Source of the DNA: a virus | Length of the DNA stretch: 64,000 nt | Virus record (IMG/VR): IMGVR_UViG_3300020438_005666 | Span: 1-64,000 of that record | Direction: 5' to 3' (one strand) | Shown here: positions 3,101 through 51,553 of the stretch, one piece after another | Position numbering within the stretch: position 1 is the first letter of the stretch | How the letters are laid out: the number at the start of each line of letters is the position of its first letter | Made by a program: the position numbers and the translations under genes | Notes under the pieces: generated by a model | Database searches by the model: none | What the model was told of the DNA's origin: nothing | What the model saw: the letters and a program-made list of their open reading frames with translations, nothing else

Positions 3101-6100
3101 TAATCAAGCTTCTGATCACGTATATGGCATGGCACACATGGTTACAAAATGTATTGATTTATCTCCTGACGGCAATAGTTTTACAGGAAATGACACTACA
3201 GGCTGTTATGTTGATGCAGACAATTGGTCTGTTACCCATGGTTTTCAATCTTGGGATGATATTCCTATCTTGAAGGTGGACTCCTCAAATGTTCCTTCTA
3301 GATATAGAAAGTTTTTATCTGGATTTGGTTCAGATTTAGGTAATATACCTAATGATTGGAGATTTTTTATTGTAACTATTAATTTAGAAAGATTTTTTGG
3401 GACTATAGATAATCAACTTTCTCATGTCAATAATCTTTTGGTAGATAAAGATTGTGCTCACAGCAGTAATTCTAATTATTCTTATTCGGATAATGCAACA
3501 CCAACGCCAATATATACAACGCCTATAGATTGTTCATGCTGTACATTCCCAGGAGAAGATTTTTCAGGACGCAACTACATTGTCAAAATATTTAGTGATA
3601 AAGGCAATAGTAGTATCAAAAAAGATATTTATGAACAAACTATATATGATTCTGATGGACCCATTAATCAAGTAGATCCTTTAAGATTTTCTAATGATAA
3701 AAGCTATAATCCTTCAGGCACTATTAGAGACACCAAAGGATTAAGTAGTACTAAACAGTCTCCAACAGCACACATATTAGATAGTGTTAAATTTAAAGCA
3801 GAAACCTATAAAACTTCAGGTTCAGCGACTAATCAATTAAGAACAAAAATTATTTATCAAATTGCAGAACCCATTATTAATTTATCAAGTGTCATTTTGG
3901 AAAATCATTGGACTACAATACTTGGTGATTCTGGAGAATTTGCTGAATTACAATGGCAATCTAGTTTTGGTAGTGATTGGGAAAGTTCGGATGATTTACC
4001 AGGAAGTAATAACTTACTAAATTTTGATGTAGCTAGTTTGGTAGGTGAATATAGAAATGGACAAAATATTTATACTCAAACTATTACCTATATAGTAAAC
4101 GAGATGTTTATATTAGATCCAACTTACAACTTTAGGGCTGTGACAACATACAACGCTCCAAATCCTATAGGTCCTCAAAAAACATCATCAGCACAAATAT
4201 ATCCTGAAGTAATATATTTAGCAATACAAGAAATAGACGGATGTTGTAATGAAGTAAATTCTATTAAATATGTTCAATATATTGATAATGAATATGCTGC
4301 TAAGTATTGGACTGAAGAAATTTTTAGTACGCATAATACAACAGCTTACATAGACGATCCAAAATATTATATTTATATTAAACAGTTTCAAAACTATGGT
4401 GGTAGTTATGAAGATCAAAATTTTTGCGCTCGTGCTTGGTTAGTCGATGCTTCTGACTTACCAGCAGATGCTATAATTTATTATAAAGCTACCTTAGATA
4501 GTAGTTCGTCTCAAGACTCATATGTTAGTTGTGAGTTCTGTTTAACAGATCATATGTTACACTCTAGCACATGTCCGCCAACTCCTACAACAACTACCAC
4601 AACAATCTTAACTTCTACACCTACACCTACACCTACACCTACACCTACACCACTACTTTTTGCTGATACCACTACAAAAACGACAACCACCACGACAGTC
4701 ACGACAACCGCAACGACACCAACGCCAGGACCGAACCCTTGTTATCATAGAATGTATTTACAACCATGCGTGGAGCCTACACCTACCCCGAACCCAATAA
4801 CTTACTGGGTGGAAAACATCACCTTAAAAGATCCTAATGAAAATGCAACATCGCCAACACCGGTTACCGTTAATGCTTGTGAATATATTGCAATACTTTT
4901 ATATGATCCAACTACTCCATCAGCATCTTATTCAAATCTATATGACTATGTTGGTTTCTATGCAATAGACTCTAATTCATGTGTAGCTATGTATAGAAAT
5001 GATGTCATCTCTAAAAACCAATTAGACACCCTCGATCCTAGCACTAATGTAATTATTGAAAACTTAATAGTAGAAGCTCAACATTATGATGAAGGGGTAT
5101 GTTTACAAAAACATTGCCCTCAAACAACAACAACAACAACAACAACATTTCCAGTAATTGAAACCACAACCACAACAACTACTCCAACAACTACAACTAC
5201 AACTGCCACAACAACACCAACTACAAAAACCCCAACAACCCCAACAACCCCCACAACAGGAACTCAAGAGACAGCTAGGATAACTACAGAAACAACAGCA
5301 ACCGTTGGCGATATTGCCATAACCACGCCTATTATATTTCCGACATTTACAGCAACACCATTGCTATGTTGCGCAACCATTATTACTCCCGAAGCTATTG
5401 ATGAAGAACCTATTCCCCCCAATTATTTTGCTGGCTGTATAGAACAACCATCAGATGCTAATCAAACCGACTTAGAATCTGTTTTTGTTGATGACTATAC
5501 TCATTGTCAAATTTCTGACAGCATAGGTCTCGAAAATCAAAGTTACTGCTCAGAATTTGAGGCAATTAGACAATGCGAAGCTGATTATTATATAGATATA
5601 TGCGGAGGGGCTATAGAGGAACAGCATTATGGAAATAATGTTGGATATTACGCCAGATGTATTGATGATGAAACAGGAGCAACTGATCAATGTTGGCCAT
5701 TATCTAGAATGTACTGTCCGCCATGCGATCAATGTGACGGTAATGGAGACCCTTGGGCCTTCCTCGGTTGTATAACTGATACAGACAGAAATAGAGGAAG
5801 AATAGGTACAGGACAAGATGGTACATGTCCATTTTTTGGTAGCTTAGATGGTAATACACAATGTTCTGTATTTGAGCTGATAGGATCTTGTTTAAAAGAT
5901 AAATGCGAAAATGACGAGGGTTGTGACGATTGTAGCTTTAATCCTGCAGGCTTCTATGCTTTATGCAAAAGGGGTACTGTTGATACCTGTGTTGCTTTAG
6001 GTAGTTACAGCTGTTGTACTACCTTAGACACAAAAACAGGCTGTGGAGACGGAGAAAGCTTTGAACCCGGACATGTAATATTACCACTATCTTCGGAGGG

Positions 6101-40102: not shown

Positions 40103-41110
40103 ATGACACTTAAAGATGATGTAAAGAAAAATTTTGGCAATGAAGTTATACAAAGTGCTAGCGCCTTAATGGATAGAGAATCTGTTGTCATCCCTCTAAG
40201 TCCAGCTTTAGATATGGTACTGGGTGGTGGAATTCCAGAAGGTAGCTTTTGTGTCTTAACTGGACAACCTAAGTGTGGGAAAACAACGACCTCCTTGGAT
40301 TTTGCAGCAACAGCACAGAAAAGCGAATATCAAGGATCTTTAAAAAAACCAAGGCATGTGTATTACCTAAATATAGAAGGTAGACTAAAAAAAAGAGATC
40401 TACAGGGTATCAAAGACTTGGATATGGATAGGTTTGATATTATAGGTTCTCAAGAAGGCAAAATCTTACATGGCGAGGAATATCTTCAAATAGCTGAAAG
40501 AATTATTAATGAGGAACCTGGATCAATTTTAATTATCGATTCATATTCTGCGATATGCACAGCCGCAGAAATCACTAGCGATATGGATAAAATGCAAAGG
40601 GCTGATGGTGCAAAGTTATTAGCAAAATTTTGCCGTAAAGTTGCTAATGTAATTCCTGTAAATAAAAATGTAGTTATAGGTATTACGCATCTTATGGGTA
40701 ACCCCACTGGCTACGGAGCTGAATTTAAAGAAAAAAGCGGTCAAGCTATAGCTTATCAAACAGATATAAAAATGAGAGCTAAAACATTTAAACCTTGGAC
40801 GCTAACGGATAATACTCAAATAGGACAAACGGTAGAATGGCAAGTTCTTTGCTCTGCCTTAAGCCCTCCCGGAGGTACTACAACATCATATATTAGATAC
40901 GGGGATGGTATAGATAAGATTACAGAAATCATGATGCTTGCTATTGATATCGGAATAATTGCCAAAGGTGGTGCTTGGTATAGTTTTGATATAGACGGAG
41001 AGAAGAAAAAATTTCAAGGAACTGAAAAACTTCGTAAGTTTTTTGTTGACAATCCAGATGCATATGATACAATACTAGAAACAACTAAAGAAACTATGGG
41101 TATAAAATGA
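40103..41110 (+). CDS. recA: RecA/UvsX-type recombinase
   Basis: The 335-residue protein has Walker A GQPKCGKT at 54-61, Walker B SILIIDSYSAI near 141-151 and the loop/glutamate region GITHLMGNPTG, in the order of RecA family recombinases. The N-terminus is short, as in phage forms. It would coat single-stranded DNA and drive strand exchange for recombination-dependent replication. It overlaps the next gene by four bases and sits next to helicase, primase and SSB genes. RecA family is secure; RadA/Sak4-type is less likely given the length. Confidence 0.85.
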   Translation: MTLKDDVKKNFGNEVIQSASALMDRESVVIPLSPALDMVLGGGIPEGSFCVLTGQPKCGKTTTSLDFAATAQKSEYQGSLKKPRHVYYLNIEGRLKKRDLQGIKDLDMDRFDIIGSQEGKILHGEEYLQIAERIINEEPGSILIIDSYSAICTAAEITSDMDKMQRADGAKLLAKFCRKVANVIPVNKNVVIGITHLMGNPTGYGAEFKEKSGQAIAYQTDIKMRAKTFKPWTLTDNTQIGQTVEWQVLCSALSPPGGTTTSYIRYGDGIDKITEIMMLAIDIGIIAKGGAWYSFDIDGEKKKFQGTEKLRKFFVDNPDAYDTILETTKETMGIK

Positions 41111-42427: not shown

Positions 42428-43891
42428 ATGAAAGACAGTATATTATCAGACCCATCCGCAGAAAGAGCTGTTCTAGCTGGTCTGTGTAGATATGGCGAAA
42501 ACGCTTACTTAGATATCGCTGATATTCTATCTAGCAATGCCTTTACTATAGATAGTAATCAAATAATTTATAATTGCATTAAGCATATTTATGAACAAAA
42601 TAATACTTCTAGTATAGATTTAGCTTCTATATATTCCGCTGCTCAAGAATTAGGCTGTTCGGAATTTATATCTTCCAAAGAAGAAGCACTACACATTAAA
42701 GCAATCCTAATGTTTCCCGTAGAAGAAAGCAATCTTCGAAAATTTGCTGTAAAAATTAAAAAACTTGAAGTTGCAAAAACTATAGCAGAACAATTAAAAT
42801 TGGCACAAACAGATGTAGAAAATATATCTGGCACAGAGTCTATTAATGATATACTTAATATAGCAGAAAGTAAAGTTCTGGATTTGGGTCAATTATTAGG
42901 CGATGGGAATAATGAACCTGATGCTATAGGTAAAAACATAGAAGATTATATTAAAAATCTAGAAGAAAATCCGATTGATCAAGTTGGTCTTTCTACTGGA
43001 TTCCCTATATATGACAAAGCAATAGGTGGAGGTTTGCGTAGAAGTACTGTTAATGTTATAGCAGCAAGACCAAAAACTGGCAAGACACTACTGGCTGATA
43101 ATATGGGTTTTGCTTTAGCTAGCCAAGGTATACCTGTTTTAAATATGGATACAGAAATGACAACTGAGGACCATATAAATAGAATTTTAGCTATGATGAC
43201 AGAAATAGATATATCTAATATAGAAACTGGCGGTTTTAGAAATTCTAGTGATTTAAAAGCAAAGATCTATGAAGCTACAGAAAAACTAAAGAATACCAGA
43301 CTGTATTACAAACCTATAGCGGGTAAGCCTTTCGAAGAACAAGTTTCTATTATGCGAAGGTGGTTAATAAAAGAGGTTGGACTTAATGATGACGGCACAG
43401 CTAAGGACTGTGTGATTTTCTATGATTATCTGAAACTTATGGATAGTCAGGGCATTAGTCAAGATATGAAAGAATATCAAGTTTTAGGTTTTATGATGAC
43501 CCAACTACATAATTTTGCAACTAAGTATAAAATACCTATAGTGGCCTTTGTTCAATTAAATAGGGATGGTATAACAAAAGAAAGTACTGATACAGCTTCT
43601 GGTTCTGATAGAATTATTTGGCTATGTAGTAATTTTAGTATTTTTAAAAGAAAGAGTGATGAAGAAATTGCAGAAGACGGTCCTACCGGAGGTAATAGAA
43701 AATTATTACCAGTTGTGAGCAGACATGGTGCTGGTCTAGATGATAATGATTATATCAATTGTCATATGAAGGGCTGGTGTGCTCAAATTACAGAAGGCAG
43801 AACAAAATTAGAATTAGCAAATAACCCAGATAAAGATTTTGAGATTAATAATAATGAAATTGATGAAAAAGAAGACATACCGTTCATATAG
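42428..43891 (+). CDS. dnaB: DnaB-type replicative DNA helicase
   Basis: The 487-residue protein has the DnaB two-domain layout: an N-terminal helical domain (1-115, starting SDPSAERAVLAGL), a linker, and a RecA-like motor with GLSTGFPIYDKAIGGGLRR, Walker A ARPKTGKT (213-220), NMDTEM and CVIFYDYLKLMD as Walker B and a Q-N-DG motif 4 region. It unwinds the fork 5'-3' and partners with the primase encoded next. It overlaps the primase start by 38 bases, so the two are coupled. Confidence 0.93.
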   Translation: MKDSILSDPSAERAVLAGLCRYGENAYLDIADILSSNAFTIDSNQIIYNCIKHIYEQNNTSSIDLASIYSAAQELGCSEFISSKEEALHIKAILMFPVEESNLRKFAVKIKKLEVAKTIAEQLKLAQTDVENISGTESINDILNIAESKVLDLGQLLGDGNNEPDAIGKNIEDYIKNLEENPIDQVGLSTGFPIYDKAIGGGLRRSTVNVIAARPKTGKTLLADNMGFALASQGIPVLNMDTEMTTEDHINRILAMMTEIDISNIETGGFRNSSDLKAKIYEATEKLKNTRLYYKPIAGKPFEEQVSIMRRWLIKEVGLNDDGTAKDCVIFYDYLKLMDSQGISQDMKEYQVLGFMMTQLHNFATKYKIPIVAFVQLNRDGITKESTDTASGSDRIIWLCSNFSIFKRKSDEEIAEDGPTGGNRKLLPVVSRHGAGLDDNDYINCHMKGWCAQITEGRTKLELANNPDKDFEINNNEIDEKEDIPFI

Positions 43892-45026
43892 TCAGACAGA
43901 AATAAAGAATATCTGCGATGACCTTTGTAGTAATATAGAAGAGTTTTGTGACTCATTAGACTTAGACTGTGTTCATAATGGTAAAATGATCACAATGAGC
44001 TGTCCTATTCATGGTGGAGATAATCCTTCTGCCCTAAATTTATATCATGGTGTTGATGGAAACTATGATTATAGTGTTGGTAATTGGGTATGTCGTACAC
44101 ATCACTGCGAAAAGATTTTTCAGCCTTCTATTATAGGTTTTATGAGAGGCATTTTATCTGTTAGTAAAATGAATTGGCAAAAAGCAGGTGATGAAATGTA
44201 TCCATTTTCTAAAACTGTAGAGCTTGCCTTAAAAATTCTTAAAAAAGATTTCAAAGACATCAATGTTTCTAATATAAATAAAGAAAAGAATAATTTTTCA
44301 CGACATATTCATACAATATCAACACCTGATATTAAACACGCCCCTAGTATTACTAGAGTGACTATTCGTAACACTCTTAATATACCATCTCAATATTACC
44401 TAGATAGAGGATTTAGTTCCAAAATATTAGACAAATATGATGTAGGACTATGTTCTAACCCTAAAAAAGAGATGTTTAATAGGGTTGTTGTCCCAATATA
44501 CAATCAAGATTATACAAATATGGTTGGCTGTACAGGTAGAAGTATCTATAATAAATGTGATAAGTGTGGTTACTTTCATAACCCAAAATCAGATTGTGTT
44601 ACTGGTAAATACGCTTGGAAATATTCTAAATGGAAACATAATAAAGATTTTAAATCAAAAGACCATCTATATAATCTATGGTTTGCTAAAAAACATATAA
44701 TAGAAAGTGGCGTAGCTATTATAGTAGAAAGTCCTGGTAATGTTTGGAAATTAGAGCAGGCCGGTATTCATAATTCTGTTGCTATTTTTGGAACATCTAT
44801 GAGCGATAGGCAGAAAATGCTTTTAGATTGTTCTGGTGCTATGTCTATTATTATAGCATTAGATCCAGACGAAGCGGGCCTAGAAGGTGGTAAAAAAATT
44901 ACTGAAAAATGCTCTAGAACATATAATACTAAAACTATTGATTGCTTAGAAACAGATATTGGGGAAATGAAAGTGAAAGATATTCAAAATATTATAAAAC
45001 CAGAAATAGGAAAACTCCATGTGTAA
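43854..45026 (+). CDS. dnaG: DnaG-type DNA primase
   Basis: The 390-residue product (ATG at 43854; a second ATG at 43863 is possible) has a CHC2-type zinc finger with C50, H53, C80 and C85, the RNA-polymerase domain strand FNRVVVPIYN and GCTGRSI, and a Toprim domain with IIVESPGNVWKL and IIIALDPDEAGLEGGKK. It makes RNA primers at the fork. An extra zinc-like insertion, CDKCGYFHNPKSDC, lies just after the GRSI motif. It lacks the DnaG C-terminal helicase-binding domain. Overlaps both DnaB and the dNMP kinase genes. Confidence 0.88.
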   Translation: MKLMKKKTYRSYSQTEIKNICDDLCSNIEEFCDSLDLDCVHNGKMITMSCPIHGGDNPSALNLYHGVDGNYDYSVGNWVCRTHHCEKIFQPSIIGFMRGILSVSKMNWQKAGDEMYPFSKTVELALKILKKDFKDINVSNINKEKNNFSRHIHTISTPDIKHAPSITRVTIRNTLNIPSQYYLDRGFSSKILDKYDVGLCSNPKKEMFNRVVVPIYNQDYTNMVGCTGRSIYNKCDKCGYFHNPKSDCVTGKYAWKYSKWKHNKDFKSKDHLYNLWFAKKHIIESGVAIIVESPGNVWKLEQAGIHNSVAIFGTSMSDRQKMLLDCSGAMSIIIALDPDEAGLEGGKKITEKCSRTYNTKTIDCLETDIGEMKVKDIQNIIKPEIGKLHV

Positions 45027-45651
45027 AATTATAGCTATGGCTGGTAGAAAACAATCTGGGAAAACTACCTCTTGTGAATATATTGGTAAAGAATTTGAAA
45101 AACAATACTGGGAAAAAAATGGGTATATTTTAGATGCAAGTGAAAACCGAGTCCCCTTTAAAATATATAATTTTGCAGACCCATTAAAAAAACTATGTAT
45201 AGATATATTCGGTCTAACAGATAGGCAATGTTATGGAACAGATGCAAATAAAAACGAAATAGTGGATTGTAAATGGCCGGGACTTGACGCTAAAATGACG
45301 GCTAGAGAAGTATTGCAGTATATCGGTACAGACGTCTTTAGGAGAATGCAGCACAATGTGTGGGCAGATGCTACTATTAGAAAAATCAAAAAAGAAAATT
45401 TCCCCCTAGCATTAGTCGCGGATTGTCGTTTTCCTAACGAGGTTGAAGCTGTTCAGAATGCTCAAGGTGTAGTTATCAAACTCAACCGGAATTTATATCA
45501 TTCTGAACACGAAAGCGAAATAGCGTTAGATGTGGATAAATATGATCAGTCAAACTTTGATTTTAGCATAAATAATCAAGAGCTACCAATTGTAGAAACA
45601 CATCAATTAATTAAAAACTACCTAGAGAAACAAAGGATAATACCATTATAA
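45019..45651 (+). CDS. Deoxynucleoside monophosphate kinase
   Basis: The 210-residue protein resembles T4 gp1-type dNMP kinases: Walker A GRKQSGKT at 9-16, FADPLKKLCIDIFGL at about 53-67, REVLQYIGTDVFR and the lid-side ALVADCRFPNEV. It phosphorylates dNMPs to dNDPs for DNA synthesis, alongside the reductase and dCMP deaminase here. The stop may overlap the non-AUG start of the next gene. Confidence 0.85.
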   Translation: MCKIIAMAGRKQSGKTTSCEYIGKEFEKQYWEKNGYILDASENRVPFKIYNFADPLKKLCIDIFGLTDRQCYGTDANKNEIVDCKWPGLDAKMTAREVLQYIGTDVFRRMQHNVWADATIRKIKKENFPLALVADCRFPNEVEAVQNAQGVVIKLNRNLYHSEHESEIALDVDKYDQSNFDFSINNQELPIVETHQLIKNYLEKQRIIPL

Positions 45652-46709
45652 TTACATACTTTAGAAGTTCTTCTTATGGTACGCATAATATGTGCGAGCA
45701 ACAATATTTTATTGAATATGTTCTTGGTAGAAGAGGTTCCTCTAATAAAAAAGCAGACAAGGGCACAATTGTCCATAAGGTATTAGAAATATTAGCCCTT
45801 ATGAAAAAAGGTATACAAGATAAGGAAGTATCTATTGATGATGAAATTATAGGAGCTATAGATTTAAATACTTGCGATATGTTTGATAATAAATATGTCT
45901 TATATTTATGTAATGCTGTATACGATTATTATACCTCTAGATTTACTAACCATCAATGGTTTCAAAAAGATCGTACAGATTGTATAGAATGGGTAAGGAA
46001 AACATTAACAGGTAATAATAGATTATTTGATCCTAGATTAAGAGATGTTTTTAGGTCTGAACAACATTTCGACCTATCTATAGATAAACCTTGGGCTAAA
46101 TATAAATATGATACAGTTGAGGGTGAATTAGAAGGCCATCTATCTATTAAAGGCACCGTAGACTTGATAACTAAGGTGTCTGATGATACCTTAGAAATTA
46201 TTGACTGGAAAACTGGTAAAAGATTAAACTGGGCTACTGGAGAAGAAAAAACTCAAGAAAAGTTAGAACAAGATCCTCAGTTAAGGATATATCATTATGC
46301 TATACATAGATTATTTCCAGAATTTAAACATATTATTATGACAATTAATTTTATGAATGATGGTGGTCCTTTCTCAATATGCTTTGATAATGATGACAAC
46401 GCAGTTGTTGCCGAATATATGATTAGAGAAAAATTCAATAGAATAAAAAATAGTAAGAGTCCTCATTTAAAGAAAACATGGAAATGTACTAAATTATGTC
46501 ATTTTGGAAAGAACAATTTTTTGCAAGACGAGACAGTATCTCCTATGATAGAATATAGAGATCGTCAAGTTACACATAAGGATGAGTTGATGACACAATG
46601 CGAACAGATTAAACACGACAATGATGTGAATGGTATGGATTATGTAGTAGAAAAATACACTGCCCCAGGACATTCTGTAGACACATACAAAGCCCCAGGA
46701 GAGGTTTAA
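45651..46709 (+). CDS. RecB/Cas4-like PD-(D/E)xK exonuclease, probable non-AUG start
   Basis: The core has GTVDLITKVSDD-LEIIDWKTGKR, the D-...-E-x-K metal site, and C-terminal Cys residues (C-TK-LC near 262-267 counted from the first ATG) suggestive of an iron-sulfur type cap. From the first ATG (45690) there are 339 residues, but the in-frame stretch just upstream reads ITYFRSSSYGTHN, exactly the family's usual opening (R-SS-Y-----CE--Y-IEYVLG). No ATG, GTG or TTG precedes it; ATT at 45645 or 45651 or ATA at 45648 with AAAGGA upstream are the only options. Shown from 45651. Confidence 0.75.
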   Translation: MTYFRSSSYGTHNMCEQQYFIEYVLGRRGSSNKKADKGTIVHKVLEILALMKKGIQDKEVSIDDEIIGAIDLNTCDMFDNKYVLYLCNAVYDYYTSRFTNHQWFQKDRTDCIEWVRKTLTGNNRLFDPRLRDVFRSEQHFDLSIDKPWAKYKYDTVEGELEGHLSIKGTVDLITKVSDDTLEIIDWKTGKRLNWATGEEKTQEKLEQDPQLRIYHYAIHRLFPEFKHIIMTINFMNDGGPFSICFDNDDNAVVAEYMIREKFNRIKNSKSPHLKKTWKCTKLCHFGKNNFLQDETVSPMIEYRDRQVTHKDELMTQCEQIKHDNDVNGMDYVVEKYTAPGHSVDTYKAPGEV

Positions 46710-46712
46710 TTA

Positions 46713-48587
46713 ATGTACACACCATTACATGTACATACGCATTATAGCTTATTGGATGGTATATCTAAACCTGAGCAAATTGCTAAAAGATGCGCTAGTC
46801 TTAATATCAAGTCCTGCGCTATTACTGATCACGGCACTATATCTGGTAATATAGATTTTTATAGAACTATGAAGCAAAATAATATTAAGCCTATATTAGG
46901 TTGCGAATTATATATTAGTGCTGACGCTACCATTAAGGATAAAACTAATAGATCTTTGTCACACTTAGTAGTTCTTGCTAAAAATTATGATGGCTGGCAA
47001 GATCTTATTAAGATAGTCTCTGTATCTAATAGCGAAGAATATTTTTACTATAAACCTAGAATTGATTTAAATATATTAAAAAAGTATATAAATAATCAAG
47101 ACCTTATTTGTATTTCGGGACATCCCGGTTCTACGCTAGCTAATGAGATATATAGTTTTGATAAGGCAGCCATGATTGACGATTGGGAAAATAAAGCTTT
47201 GCAACATATATCTAATCTACAAGATGTGTTTGGTAAAGATAATTTTTTTATTGAAATACAATTAATGGACGCAGGCAATGAGCATCAACAGATTATAGGA
47301 AAGTCATTAAGAGATCTTTCTAAGTCAAAGCATATTCCTAGAGTTGCCACTATAGACGCACACTATTGCGATATTCTAGACGCTGTAGATCAAAGAGTGT
47401 TACTATGTAGTTCTCTAAAGACGACACTCCCCGATGTATCAAATAAAATTTTAAATAATCAAGAAGTGGCATTGTCTACCTTTTTTACTTCTGATAAATA
47501 TTACATATTATCACCAGAAGAAATGGATGAATTACATGATTCAGAAGAACTTGAAAATACTATAAAAATAGATAATATGTGTGAGGATTATGATATTTTA
47601 AAATCTCCACAATTACCAGATTTTGAATGCCCAGATAAACAAACGCCTATAGACTATATTAGAGAGTTATGTAGGGGTGGCTGGCGGTCCAAAATACAAA
47701 ACAAAGTACCAAAAGAAAAGCATGAAATATATGTAGAAAGAATCAAACAAGAACTTGATGTTTTAGCGAAAGCAAATTTGTCTAGTTATTTTTTGATTGT
47801 AAAAGATATCGTTGATTATGTTAAATCAATTGATTGTTTGCCAGGACCGGGTAGAGGCAGTGCTGCTGGTTGTCTAGTGTCGTACCTTATAGGTATTACA
47901 GCTATAGACCCTATTGAATATGATTTAATTTTTGAAAGATTTTATAATACAGGGAGAAACACCGATAAACATATATCAATGCCTGATATTGATGTGGACG
48001 TACCTATAGAGCATAGAGAAGCTATTATTAATTATATTAAAGATAAGTATGGATATGATAAAGTTTCTCAAATGATTACTTTTAATACTCTAAAAGGCAG
48101 GGGAGCTTTGAAGGAAGTTTTAAGGGTTTACGGCAACATATCTTTCCAAGAAATGAATAAAATAACAAAAAATATTCCAGATGAAGCAAAAATAGCTGAC
48201 GAATTGCAACAAATGAAAGATGGGAATGGTGGGGCATCCATAATTAGATGGGCTCTAGAAAATAACGGAGACAAACTAAAAGAATGGTGCCATTTAAATG
48301 ATGATGGTGAGCTACAAGGCCCATTAGCAAAAAGATTTGAGCAAGCTATTCGGTTAGAGGGCTCTAAATATAATCAATCAAAACATGCTGCTGGTATAGC
48401 TATAGCCAATAACTCTTTGAACTCTATATGTCCAATGATATGGGATAAAAAAACAAATCAAAATATAGCAGGGTTTGAAATGTCCGACTTAGAATCAATT
48501 GGTGTTATAAAATTCGATATTTTAGGCATAGCCCTATTGGATAAGATCATGTTAGCTAAAAATTTACTGAATATAAAGGCTTTATAA
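46713..48587 (+). CDS. dnaE: DNA polymerase III alpha subunit, N-terminal part (PHP, palm)
   Basis: The 624-residue product covers the PHP domain (1-270) and the palm/thumb of DnaE. PHP metal residues look intact: HVHTH at 6-10, ITDHGTISG and GCELY, unlike the degenerate E. coli PHP. The catalytic Asp residues are D425 and D427 in PDIDVD and D602 in KFDILG, so the whole triad is in this half. The chain stops 22 residues after D602, before the fingers. The rest is encoded at 49451-51061; the two halves total 1160 residues, as in a full DnaE. TAATG couples it to the next small ORF. Confidence 0.92.
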   Translation: MYTPLHVHTHYSLLDGISKPEQIAKRCASLNIKSCAITDHGTISGNIDFYRTMKQNNIKPILGCELYISADATIKDKTNRSLSHLVVLAKNYDGWQDLIKIVSVSNSEEYFYYKPRIDLNILKKYINNQDLICISGHPGSTLANEIYSFDKAAMIDDWENKALQHISNLQDVFGKDNFFIEIQLMDAGNEHQQIIGKSLRDLSKSKHIPRVATIDAHYCDILDAVDQRVLLCSSLKTTLPDVSNKILNNQEVALSTFFTSDKYYILSPEEMDELHDSEELENTIKIDNMCEDYDILKSPQLPDFECPDKQTPIDYIRELCRGGWRSKIQNKVPKEKHEIYVERIKQELDVLAKANLSSYFLIVKDIVDYVKSIDCLPGPGRGSAAGCLVSYLIGITAIDPIEYDLIFERFYNTGRNTDKHISMPDIDVDVPIEHREAIINYIKDKYGYDKVSQMITFNTLKGRGALKEVLRVYGNISFQEMNKITKNIPDEAKIADELQQMKDGNGGASIIRWALENNGDKLKEWCHLNDDGELQGPLAKRFEQAIRLEGSKYNQSKHAAGIAIANNSLNSICPMIWDKKTNQNIAGFEMSDLESIGVIKFDILGIALLDKIMLAKNLLNIKAL

Positions 48588-48763
48588 TGGAATTCCAGAA
48601 TGTAAAAGTGGGTCAAAGATTTATTTACAATAAATTAGAATATTTAAAAATTACTGAAATAAAAAAGAACTGTTGCCAAATTGAATGTAATGCGTTAAAA
48701 TTACAGGATAACAACAAAATACTTTTTGAATACAAAGCAAAGGTGGAGGTAATAAATGATTAG
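48587..48763 (+). CDS. 58-residue protein between the polymerase halves
   Basis: The ATG overlaps the polymerase stop (TAATG) and the stop overlaps the exonuclease start (ATGATTAG). The product begins MEFQNVKVGQRFIYNKLEYL and looks like a small beta-barrel with two Cys; similar G-x-RF-Y-G-EY starts occur in short phage proteins. No function known. The exact fit between coupled genes supports translation. Confidence 0.6.
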   Translation: MEFQNVKVGQRFIYNKLEYLKITEIKKNCCQIECNALKLQDNNKILFEYKAKVEVIND

Positions 48764-49454
48764 GAATAAAATTTGTGTTTTTGATTTTGAAACAGATGGG
48801 ATAAACCCTTCTGTTTGTAGTCCGGTTCAGTTATCTGCGGTAATTGTTGATCCTATAAAGCTAGATATTGTTAAAAATTCACAGTTTAATGTGATGCTTA
48901 AACCTGAAAAATTGGAAGATGAGTCTTGCGATAATCCTTATACCGACTCGGATATTTTAGAATGGCACGGTAAGGTGAAAGCTATCTCGGCTCAACAGGT
49001 ATTATCTGATTGGAAGCAATACCCTAATCAGAAACATGCTTGGTCTCAATTCGTATCGTATTTAGATAAATATCACTCAAAAGCTAATGGGGGTAAAAAA
49101 TCTCAATTTACAGCACCTATTGCTTGTGGGTATAATATATTAAGATTTGATATGCCAATTGTAGATAGATTAAGTGTAAAATATGATAATGTTAATAAAG
49201 AAAAAAGTACGTGTTTATTTCACCCTAGAGACAAGATAGATTTAATGCATGTTATGTTCTTGTGGATGAGTTATGTTTCCGAAGTTAGATCTTTATCTTT
49301 AGATAATATGAGAGATTATCTAGGATTAAGCAAAGATAATGCTCATGATGCAATTAAAGATGTTGAGGATTGTGCAAAAATATTAATTAGATTCTTAAGA
49401 CTGCATAAAAATTTAAGCAGTAAGATACAATTTAAAGGCGCTTTTAGTTCATGA
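48756..49454 (+). CDS. dnaQ: DnaQ-like 3'-5' proofreading exonuclease
   Basis: The 232-residue protein carries the DEDDh motifs: D10 and E12 in VFDFETDG, D132 in GYNILRFDMP, and H197-x4-D202 in AHDAIKDVED. It would remove mismatched 3' ends. It sits between the two polymerase gene halves, overlapping the downstream half by four bases (ATGA), so the three proteins are made together, consistent with a polymerase-proofreading complex. No clamp-binding motif or extra domain is seen. Confidence 0.88.
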   Translation: MIRNKICVFDFETDGINPSVCSPVQLSAVIVDPIKLDIVKNSQFNVMLKPEKLEDESCDNPYTDSDILEWHGKVKAISAQQVLSDWKQYPNQKHAWSQFVSYLDKYHSKANGGKKSQFTAPIACGYNILRFDMPIVDRLSVKYDNVNKEKSTCLFHPRDKIDLMHVMFLWMSYVSEVRSLSLDNMRDYLGLSKDNAHDAIKDVEDCAKILIRFLRLHKNLSSKIQFKGAFSS

Positions 49455-51061
49455 AAACGATAACATTTGCAGATTGTGCTTGCGAGTTTCCTGTCGGAAA
49501 AGACGGAAGCGTTGACTTAGATATTAGTTTAGAAAATATTTGCCTAAGCTGTAATAGAACATGGAATTTAATATCTGAAGGGAATACTAAGGGTTGCTTT
49601 CAGTTAGAATCTAGACTAGGTCAGATGATGTCTAAGAAATTAAAACCTAACAATATAGAGCAGCTTTCTGCCTTGATAAGTATCATGAGGCCGGGATGTC
49701 TAGAAGCTTATCGTGATGGTAAGTCTGTTAGCAATCATTATATAGATAAAAAAAATCAAGAAGAAGAAGTAGACTTTTTCCATGAGTCATTAGAACCTAT
49801 ATTGAAAACCACCTATGGAGAAATGGTTTATCAAGAACAAGCTATGCAAATATGTCAGTGTGTTGCTAATTTCGATCTCACCGAAGCTGATAAATTAAGA
49901 AAAGCTATCGGTAAGAAACAACCAGAAGAAATGAAAAAGATTAAAAAGATTTTTATCAAAAAAACAGCATCCGCTAAAATATTATCAAAAGAAGAAGCTG
50001 AGCAGGTGTTTGGATGGATTGAAAAAAGTCAAAGATATAGTTTTAATAAAAGTCATGCTGTTAGTTATGCTTATAATGCATACTTGTCTGCTTATATAAA
50101 AGCTCATTTTCCTAAACATTTTTTTGCAGCATATATGAAATTTGCTAAAGATAAAATAGATCCCTTAAAAGAAATTCAAGAATTAGTCAATAATGCTAAC
50201 CAAATGGGTATAGATGTTTATAAACCTAGCATTCGAAAACCATCAAAAGAATTTTTTATAGATCAAGACGATAATAATATCTATTTTGGTCTTACTGATA
50301 TTAAAGGTGTTGGTGATTCAGTTTATGAAAAAATTACAGAAATATTAAATAATATTAATTTAAAAAATATGGGATTCGGTAAGTTATATTGCGAATTTTT
50401 ACAACATATCAACTCTACAGCAGCAAAAGCTATTATATCTGTTGGAGCTATAGATACTTTGTCTATATCTAGAAATAAAATGTTATTTTACTACGAAAAC
50501 TTAAATAGTCTTACCGACAGAGAGCTGTCTGTACTAAATAAAATTTTTGATAAAGAAATTGATATAGATAAAGCATTGGCTATCTTAATAGATAATACAG
50601 AAAAAAAGCTGATAGCTAAGAGAAAGAATGTAGTATTATCTATCATCAATAGTATAAATAAGCCGCCTTACAACTTAGAAGATAGTCCAGAATGGTTAGC
50701 TAGTAATGAAAGATTCTATTTAGGTATATCTCTAACCTGTCATAAAATTGATGGTTGTGATATATATACGGCTAATGCAGAATGTAAAGATCTATTAAAA
50801 AACAACTGCCCTAAACAGCCTATTTTAGGAGCAGAAATTGTAGATATAAATGTTATCAAAACCAAAAGGGGTTTAAATCCAGGTCAGGAAATGGCTTTTG
50901 TTAAAGCTGAAGACTCTACTGGAGTTTCTGATCTTGTTGTGTTTCCAGAAGAATATACAAAATATAAAGATTTATTAATGGAAGGTAATACTTTAATATT
51001 AAAATTAGATAGGTCCAAGGATAAGGATTCTTTTATAGTGAAGAAATGCTGGCAAGTATAG
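49451..51061 (+). CDS. dnaE: DNA polymerase III alpha subunit, C-terminal part (fingers, HhH, OB)
   Basis: The 536-residue product begins with about 30 new residues and then continues DnaE exactly where the first part ends: NTKGCFQLESR (45-55), ISIMRPGCLEAY, ESLEPILKTTYGEMVYQEQ-M, LRKAIGKK, and SFNKSHAVSYAY (197-208). The tail has a helix-hairpin-helix region (FGLTDIKGVGDSVYEKI) and an OB domain (GAEIVDINVIKTKRG ... V-FPE-Y). No intein residues occur at the break. It cannot polymerise alone since the catalytic Asp residues are in the other half. Confidence 0.92.
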   Translation: MKTITFADCACEFPVGKDGSVDLDISLENICLSCNRTWNLISEGNTKGCFQLESRLGQMMSKKLKPNNIEQLSALISIMRPGCLEAYRDGKSVSNHYIDKKNQEEEVDFFHESLEPILKTTYGEMVYQEQAMQICQCVANFDLTEADKLRKAIGKKQPEEMKKIKKIFIKKTASAKILSKEEAEQVFGWIEKSQRYSFNKSHAVSYAYNAYLSAYIKAHFPKHFFAAYMKFAKDKIDPLKEIQELVNNANQMGIDVYKPSIRKPSKEFFIDQDDNNIYFGLTDIKGVGDSVYEKITEILNNINLKNMGFGKLYCEFLQHINSTAAKAIISVGAIDTLSISRNKMLFYYENLNSLTDRELSVLNKIFDKEIDIDKALAILIDNTEKKLIAKRKNVVLSIINSINKPPYNLEDSPEWLASNERFYLGISLTCHKIDGCDIYTANAECKDLLKNNCPKQPILGAEIVDINVIKTKRGLNPGQEMAFVKAEDSTGVSDLVVFPEEYTKYKDLLMEGNTLILKLDRSKDKDSFIVKKCWQV

Positions 51062-51145: not shown

Positions 51146-51553
51146 ATGAATTTAGTAATTTTGAGAGGTAACATAGCTAGAGACCCTGAACTTAGATATG
51201 TTAATACTTCTGGCAGGGAAACTGCTGTGATTAATTTTACCGTAGCGGTTTCACGAGAATTTACTAAGAATAATGGAGAGCAGGATAAGGTTACGACCTT
51301 TGTTAATTGCGAAGCTTGGGACACTGGCGCTGAAGCTATTGGCAATTCTTTCCGAAAGGGAGATTTAGTCATGATCGAAGGATCATTAAGAAATGATTCC
51401 TGGGAAAAAGATGGTATCAAAAGATCCACAATGAAAGTTAGGGTAAATAATTTTGCTAGAATTCAGAAGATTTCTAAGTCTTCTGGCGCTAACAAAAAAG
51501 ATAGTCAGGAGACTAGTCAGGACAGTAGTGGAGAACCTGCCGTAGCTTTCTAA
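51146..51553 (+). CDS. ssb: Single-stranded DNA-binding protein
   Basis: Start placed at the ATG at 51146 (135 residues) with AGGAG upstream. The OB-fold start MNLVILRGNIARDPELRYVN, then INFTVAVSR and FVNCEAWDTGAEAIGNSFRKGDLVMIEGSL, is a textbook bacterial-type SSB. The tail is Ser/Gln/Asp-rich and ends AVAF, a weak version of the acidic partner-binding tip. It has its own promoter and terminator, fitting high-level production. Confidence 0.95.
   Translation: MNLVILRGNIARDPELRYVNTSGRETAVINFTVAVSREFTKNNGEQDKVTTFVNCEAWDTGAEAIGNSFRKGDLVMIEGSLRNDSWEKDGIKRSTMKVRVNNFARIQKISKSSGANKKDSQETSQDSSGEPAVAF

Follow-up and report, generated by a model that had tools for sequence, protein, structure and literature searches.

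Split alpha subunits of DNA polymerase III (Pol III alpha, DnaE) have precedents in cyanobacteria, actinophages and jumbo phages. Cyanobacterial DnaE is split by an intein (PMC3919608). In group 2.2 jumbo phages, the minimal catalytic part of Pol III alpha is made as two proteins that are thought to reconstitute one enzyme; these lack the other Pol III domains, are encoded by distant genes and occur beside a family B polymerase (Iyer et al. 2021, PMC7824862). DnaE of the actinophages AnnaSerena (56/57), Sienna (64/66) and Papyrus (72/74), found as rows L214, L215 and L216, is encoded in two neighbouring genes, with an open reading frame (ORF) between them in Sienna and Papyrus, but there the cut separates the PHP domain from the polymerase part, so that the catalytic core stays in one chain. 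The DnaE cuts in KLEB27-3 and MMB025 lie elsewhere and have endonuclease genes between the parts. The subject of the present analysis is a window of 64,000 bases (bases 1-64000 of the 109,556-base virus record IMGVR_UViG_3300020438_005666), in which four intact ORFs at 46713-51061, all on the plus strand, encode an N-terminal DnaE part (DnaE-N), a small protein (S), a DnaQ-like exonuclease (X) and a C-terminal DnaE part (DnaE-C), in this order.

In contrast to the group 2.2 jumbo phage enzyme, the polymerase of the window possesses PHP and the full domain set, is encoded by neighbouring genes in one operon and is not accompanied by a match to DNA_pol_B. It shares with cyanobacterial DnaE a gene in two pieces, but the break between N and C has no intein halves. 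No description of the N-S-X-C arrangement was found in the literature covered, including the available portions of PMC3919608, PMC12926913, PMC7824862 and PMC2147016; subscription papers and preprints were outside the scope. In Bacillus phage vB_BpsS-140, a DnaE region without an annotated gene was noticed (L103, 2105-5719), the frame of which is broken inside the N part.

With a probability that we put at about 0.85, DnaE-N and DnaE-C would constitute a C-family Pol III alpha of two polypeptides that assemble non-covalently, acting as the replicative polymerase of a large clade of uncultivated phages. The elements of such an enzyme (PHP, palm with DxD and third Asp, fingers, HhH and OB) are all present, spread over two proteins. 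DnaE-N (46713-48587, 624 aa) comprises PHP and palm (Pfam PHP, 9.5e-43; DNA_pol3_alpha, 3.4e-71) with the Asp residues D425, D427 and D602, the last of these followed by 22 residues. DnaE-C (49451-51061, 536 aa) comprises fingers (DNA_pol3_finger, 9.7e-44), HhH (HHH_6, 5.8e-09) and an OB fold that is weak by Pfam (3.3e-4, below the cut-off) and visible in the model alignment.

Both halves were searched against full-length DnaE, as an earlier note on this DNA had proposed, and were found to cover complementary ranges of phrog_405 (1190 positions), which is tiled by N (44-616) and C (615-1064), the break mapping to the linker between palm and fingers. The N profile matched Thermus aquaticus Pol III alpha (2hpi) from residue 8 to 626 in two stretches, and the C profile matched residues 642-953 of the T. 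aquaticus protein or, alternatively, residues 585-900 of Escherichia coli alpha together with a weak stretch at 949-1055. The AlphaFold model of DnaE-C (predicted local distance difference test, pLDDT, 84.5) was superimposed on residues 572-1073 of E. coli alpha (5fku) with Z 19.0 and a root-mean-square deviation (rmsd) of 8.9 over 453 aligned residues, and on 5lew with Z 19.0 and rmsd 3.1 over 318. Fused phage DnaEs of phrog_405 (Geobacillus phage GBK1, Moorella phage MTATph1 and fecal phage contigs) have the same domains in the same order, and both halves align with them; they differ in being one chain, and identities among the 60 best rows do not exceed 36.7% to N and 29.6% to C. The halves had been said to total 1160 residues like an intact DnaE. 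The sum (624+536) is right, but the agreement is partly coincidence, E. coli alpha beyond approximately residue 1073 being uncovered. The tau-binding C-terminal domain of E. coli-type DnaE1 is thus not present; the DnaE of phage GBK1 likewise ends after the OB part, so this domain is not universal in phage DnaEs. No internal beta-clamp-binding motif was obvious by eye in the alignment of the C halves.

The break region (48510-49615, plus strand) extends from the N tail (KFDILG to stop) through S and X to the head of C, up to GCFQLESR. The cut falls after the third catalytic Asp, D602 in KFDILG, and before GCFQLESR, which is where the earlier note had located it; the catalytic residues were assigned by comparison with the catalytic Asp positions of E. 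coli alpha. In the fused relatives displayed, the palm helix continues directly into the finger segment, so the cut corresponds to the palm/fingers linker, with no loss from the core. Lying between the palm helix past D602 and the fingers, it would leave every core element whole. DnaE-N would then supply PHP and the palm, including the complete set of three catalytic Asp residues, and DnaE-C the fingers, HhH and OB parts. In Pol III structures the active site is completed by fingers and palm; neither half would be a polymerase alone, and only the meeting of fingers with palm would complete the site.

Relatives were collected by searches of viral_contigs with N (8), C (13), X (the best 80 of 183) and an N profile (the best 80 of at least 544 relatives). 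Loci with an N identity of at least 50%, matched beyond residue 600, were retained, and near-identical ones were merged on the N sequence, giving 111 distinct loci. In 100 of these the genes follow one another as N, X and C, the two polymerase halves always occupying different ORFs, and a fused N-C was found in none of the 111. The remaining 11 loci lie on contigs that end before C (9) or before X (2). The two contigs that lack X stop no more than 250 bases past N; six of the nine without C stop in X or one base past its matched part, and the other three (L089, L096 and L183) extend 1.05-2.54 kb further and end inside an insert between X and C like that of L088. N, X and C are also present in three contigs from a genome collection (labelled Chitinophagia, Alphaproteobacteria and Flavobacteriales), N being interrupted in L199. 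The split arrangement is real and widespread in a large group of uncultured phages. The gene order that the earlier note had read from the window is conserved, and its concern that a sequencing error might have separated two halves of one frame is answered by the same 111 loci. A sequencing or assembly artefact would be in keeping with the frame breaks in N or C of L009 and a few other loci; however, the end of the N stop and the C start are 864 bases apart, a distance filled by two conserved genes, and 100 distinct loci show the arrangement, the contigs sampled including three from the genome collection, which leaves this explanation with next to no probability.

Selection and co-inheritance were evaluated for all four genes. 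Ratios of non-synonymous to synonymous substitution rates (dN/dS, NG86) in close pairs were 0.013-0.057 for N, 0.014-0.085 for X, 0.009-0.040 for C and 0.067-0.103 for S, the N row of L042/L043 having been left out of the table owing to a frame problem. Between the window and five relatives (the four nearest and L027), synonymous sites were mostly saturated; the computable values were 0.048-0.116 for N, X and C, and S gave 0.367 against L031. All four genes are under purifying selection. Over 80 loci, pairwise distances were correlated with r 0.926 for N and C, 0.900 for N and X, and 0.892 for C and X, and none of 1000 permutations reached values as high; N and C are conserved and co-inherited. 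The polymerase residues D425, D427 and D602 were found in 21/21 N rows and the finger residues Y196, N199, K200 and H202 in 19/19 C rows. Nine PHP positions, taken as metal ligands by comparison with Mycobacterium tuberculosis DnaE1, are kept in 21/21 N rows, except that H6 and H8 are kept in 20/21 (one row starts later).

Wherever a family locus includes DnaE-C, it is encoded as a protein in its own right, and it might accordingly be a remnant, or have a separate function, without joining N. Against this stand the purifying selection on C, its invariant finger residues, the co-variation of its distances with those of N and the fact that N has no fingers while a second finger domain was found in none of 20 large records. 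In each of these 20 large relatives (113-238 kb) the finger domain occurs once only, and the ORF that carries it is 530-563 aa long. Neither DNA_pol_A, DNA_pol_B nor DNA_pol3_beta_3 matched in them or in the 109,556-base record itself; a search of the 21 records with DNA_pol_B_2 gave no match either, but its controls were equally silent and it carries no weight. The lack of family A and B matches together with one finger domain per large record speaks against C as a dispensable remnant, a reading that we consider quite improbable, and the split Pol III seems to be the only replicase of the phage. A divergent clamp may exist, DNA_pol3_beta_3 being the sole clamp domain searched.

Covalent rejoining of the halves, by protein trans-splicing, RNA splicing or recoding, would find a parallel in relatives that carry inteins in N (between GPGRG and S) or in C (between FNK and S, or RPG and C), and in the sister locus L266, where inteins occupy the GRG and FNK sites. 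The circumstances are different at the N/C break. N and C are complete with their own starts and stops, several stops follow in the N frame right after the N stop, and S and X intervene with their own starts. The N tail is 19-30 residues long past the KFD Asp in 108/109 rows (L063 has KLD instead), and the C head measures 12-53 residues before GNTKG in 100 rows, as estimates for which the start was taken as the last start codon before the match; from stop to stop, the C ORFs of the 20 large relatives are 530-563 aa. A split intein was therefore ruled out, both chain ends being too short for intein halves of usual size, in agreement with the earlier view that this is not a break of the cyanobacterial type. 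An intron between the halves was likewise ruled out by the search of the whole window against Rfam at gathering scores, which gave no match and detected no group I or II intron. Covalent rejoining is accordingly regarded as very improbable.

Large inserts inside N or C were encountered in 8/111 loci. Intein parts in two ORFs interrupt N between GPGRG and S in L057, L063, L068 and L080 (4/111); L070 is identical to L068 over the stretch compared. In-frame inteins with an HNH part are situated between RPG and C in the C genes of L063 (3634-6021), L075 (6674-8959) and L098 (6674-8941), the HNH match having been seen in the L075 intein. In L054, intein parts in two ORFs with a DUF559-like ORF between them occupy the site between FNK and S of C, and a further ORF between intein parts was seen in L057 too. 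Such two-ORF inteins, which reportedly occur in 'fractured' phage genes, are present inside N or C of a few relatives and not at the N/C break. Most breaks inside core motifs thus carry inteins and the palm/fingers break does not, a contrast that indirectly suggests that N and C need no covalent bond.

Some observations weigh against a two-chain polymerase that serves as the replicase of these phages. The N of L199 is interrupted just before PDIDVD (3216-4321) by 1.1 kb with a LAGLIDADG-like ORF, in which no intein parts were seen and which had no Rfam match; breaks inside the core are therefore not always marked by an intein, and L199 is an exception without explanation. The S, X and C of L009 (5998-7892) show 100% identity to those of the window, but its N is broken in several frames, probably by sequencing errors in that contig. 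The records are possibly fragments, so another polymerase may exist.

X (48756-49454, plus strand) encodes a DnaQ-like DEDDh 3'-5' exonuclease of 232 aa, with matches to Pfam RNase_T (3.1e-08) and to phrog_192, 'DNA polymerase exonuclease subunit' (3.8e-18). Its residues D10, E12, D132, H197 and D202 were found in 20/20 X rows. From these matches it is most likely an epsilon-like subunit that would act in proofreading. The PHP metal residues had been described as intact beforehand, and the nine conserved positions bear this out; because the PHP and DEDDh residues are both kept, two exonuclease sites are possible in the complex.

S (48587-48763, plus strand) is an ORF of 58 aa with a Cys-Cys pair, C29 and C30, that is invariant in 60/60 aligned members. 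The window's own S belongs to no Pfam or PHROG family; 15/60 members of its family match phrog_2183 (unknown function), with a best E value of 1.7e-06. The S profile had no match up to E 10 among PDB sequences. Its model (pLDDT 96.9) is a small beta barrel resembling SH3, KOW and EF-P domain I folds; fold matches are weak (EF-P domain I, ribosomal protein L2, KOW and Tudor; best PDB E value 0.18, Z not above 5.3), and many small phage proteins are also similar (best E value 8.8e-05). SPbeta YorP (2heq) is another weak match (Z 3.9), and its gene lies 1.28 kb after yorL, annotated as a putative DNA polymerase, in an SPbeta-like phage. A small SH3-fold gene is also reported to adjoin the polymerase in group 1 jumbo phages (Iyer et al., PMC7824862). 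By analogy, these cases hint at a recurrent polymerase accessory, and S is probably, judging from its modelled fold, an accessory subunit or a nucleic-acid contact.

An S ORF is found directly between N and X in 104/109 rows, among which L001 is the copy of the window itself. The five exceptions are three loci in which S is accompanied by inserted DNA (L067, L091 and L097) and two, L003 and L004, that lack S at this place; the S profile matched neither the 53-kb L003 record nor the 13.7-kb L004 record. Among 22 records the profile matched once in 20, twice in one and not at all in one. At 7860-7920 of L003 and L004 the X start comes immediately after the N stop and in frame with N, and read-through would give an N-X fusion. 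Extra DNA was also observed between X and C in L079 (6675-7698) and L088 (6687-9311); together with DNA inserted between S and X in L067 (3384-5947), these cases show that the close spacing is not strictly kept. Relatives of X or S were sought by tblastn with P0003 (E not above 1e-5) and with the S of L090 (E not above 0.1), without a match in 50,697 phage records.

The genes of the window overlap by 1 nt at N/S (TAATG), 8 nt at S/X and 4 nt at X/C (ATGA), so that the linkage by TAATG and ATGA claimed for all of them holds at the first and last junctions and fails at S/X. Across the family the X/C overlap is 4 bases in 39/100 and 8 bases in 33/100 rows with both ends, start codons being estimated. 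The overlaps suggest coupled synthesis of the proteins.

C9-x-C11 near the start of DnaE-C and C34 further on (window 49475-49552) are nearly invariant. CxC is lacking in the fused segments displayed, in L266 and in Rossellomorea phage phiT1, and the C ORFs of L075 and L098 begin after the CxC part. A metal site shared by S and the CxC of C was considered as a candidate and weakened by these two late-starting ORFs and by row L027, the C half on the L003 contig, which keeps the cysteines without S.

A single obligate complex of four proteins, in which S and/or X bridge the halves, would account for the conserved interposed order, the single S match in 20/22 records and the invariant Cys-Cys of S, and the SH3-fold gene beside the group 1 jumbo phage polymerase and the position of YorP would conform to it. 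It is opposed by the missing S of L003 and L004, the C half on the L003 contig (L027) nevertheless keeping C9, C11 and C34, by the extra DNA between X and C in L079 and L088 and by L266 and phiT1, which are split without S or X between the halves. The split can thus exist with neither X nor S interposed, and these cases contradict the earlier proposal, that the halves reassemble around the small protein or the exonuclease, as a general requirement; within the window's clade such scaffolding may occur, and we look on the obligate complex as rather unlikely.

The two-chain enzyme was placed among its relatives by phylogeny. The split family forms one group in the trees, with Shimodaira-Hasegawa-like approximate likelihood ratio test (SH-aLRT) supports of 98 (N core), 100 (full N) and 100 (C). 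L266 (4956-10894) is a sister lineage (SH-aLRT 96), 45-46% identical to the window in the matched parts. Its DnaE is broken at the same site; the ORF that separates the halves (approximately 225 aa) matches no Pfam family, and N contains a LAGLIDADG intein. The 49.8-kb record of L266 contains no RNase_T and no S match, and a search for its relatives returned only L266 itself. Because this sister is split without S or X between the halves, the split likely came first and S and X later, a conclusion that rests on the single contig L266.

Phage phiT1 (PV767480; L116, 3986-7268) is split at the same palm/fingers linker in the order gp20-gp19-gp18, both DnaE parts being annotated as DNA polymerase III subunit alpha. 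It shares with the window the small ORF between the halves (gp19, 49 aa, without an S motif by eye) and the TAATG overlap, and differs in having no DnaQ between them; its record gave no S and no RNase_T match, and no relatives of gp20 were confirmed in viral_contigs. RNase_T was found in 3/14 records of fused relatives, L266 and phiT1. The nearest phiT1 rows in the trees are fused DnaEs, and from the sequences a second, independent origin of its split appears likely. Approximately unbiased (AU) tests did not reject a clade uniting phiT1 and the split family (N, p 0.281; C, p 0.411; with L266 included, p 0.496); a test without L266 in the group (p 0.0103), which leaves L266 on the other side, was set aside.

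The polymerase genes are located within a replication cluster on the plus strand, which is in favour of the replicase reading. Upstream, PHROGs identified a DnaB-like helicase (42428-43891; Pfam DnaB_C, 1.2e-25), a primase (43839-45026), a deoxynucleoside monophosphate (dNMP) kinase (45019-45651) and an exonuclease (45690-46709); a single-strand DNA-binding protein (51146-51553; phrog_44, 8.1e-36) follows downstream of DnaE-C. A UvsX-like recombinase is encoded at 40103-41110, upstream of the helicase-primase-polymerase cluster.

A more far-reaching scheme, which we regard as speculative and on balance doubtful, would have palm and fingers as lasting separate parts of the core throughout the clade, brought together anew and non-covalently in every replisome. 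S and DnaQ would dock at the chain ends that the cut creates, and assembly of the polymerase and exchange of the fingers would become a control point in an enzyme with two proofreading sites (PHP and DEDDh). Under the two-polypeptide reading itself, annotation of single genes would list two polymerases where there is one replicase. The locus represents a natural break within the catalytic core of a replicative polymerase that has been conserved although no splicing element is recognisable at it, distinct in this respect from the other, mostly intein-bearing breaks in the same proteins. It would offer a ready-made split polymerase in which assembly of the active site and proofreading by PHP and DnaQ together might be studied, and it suggests that the palm and fingers of Pol III can possibly be made as separate subunits.

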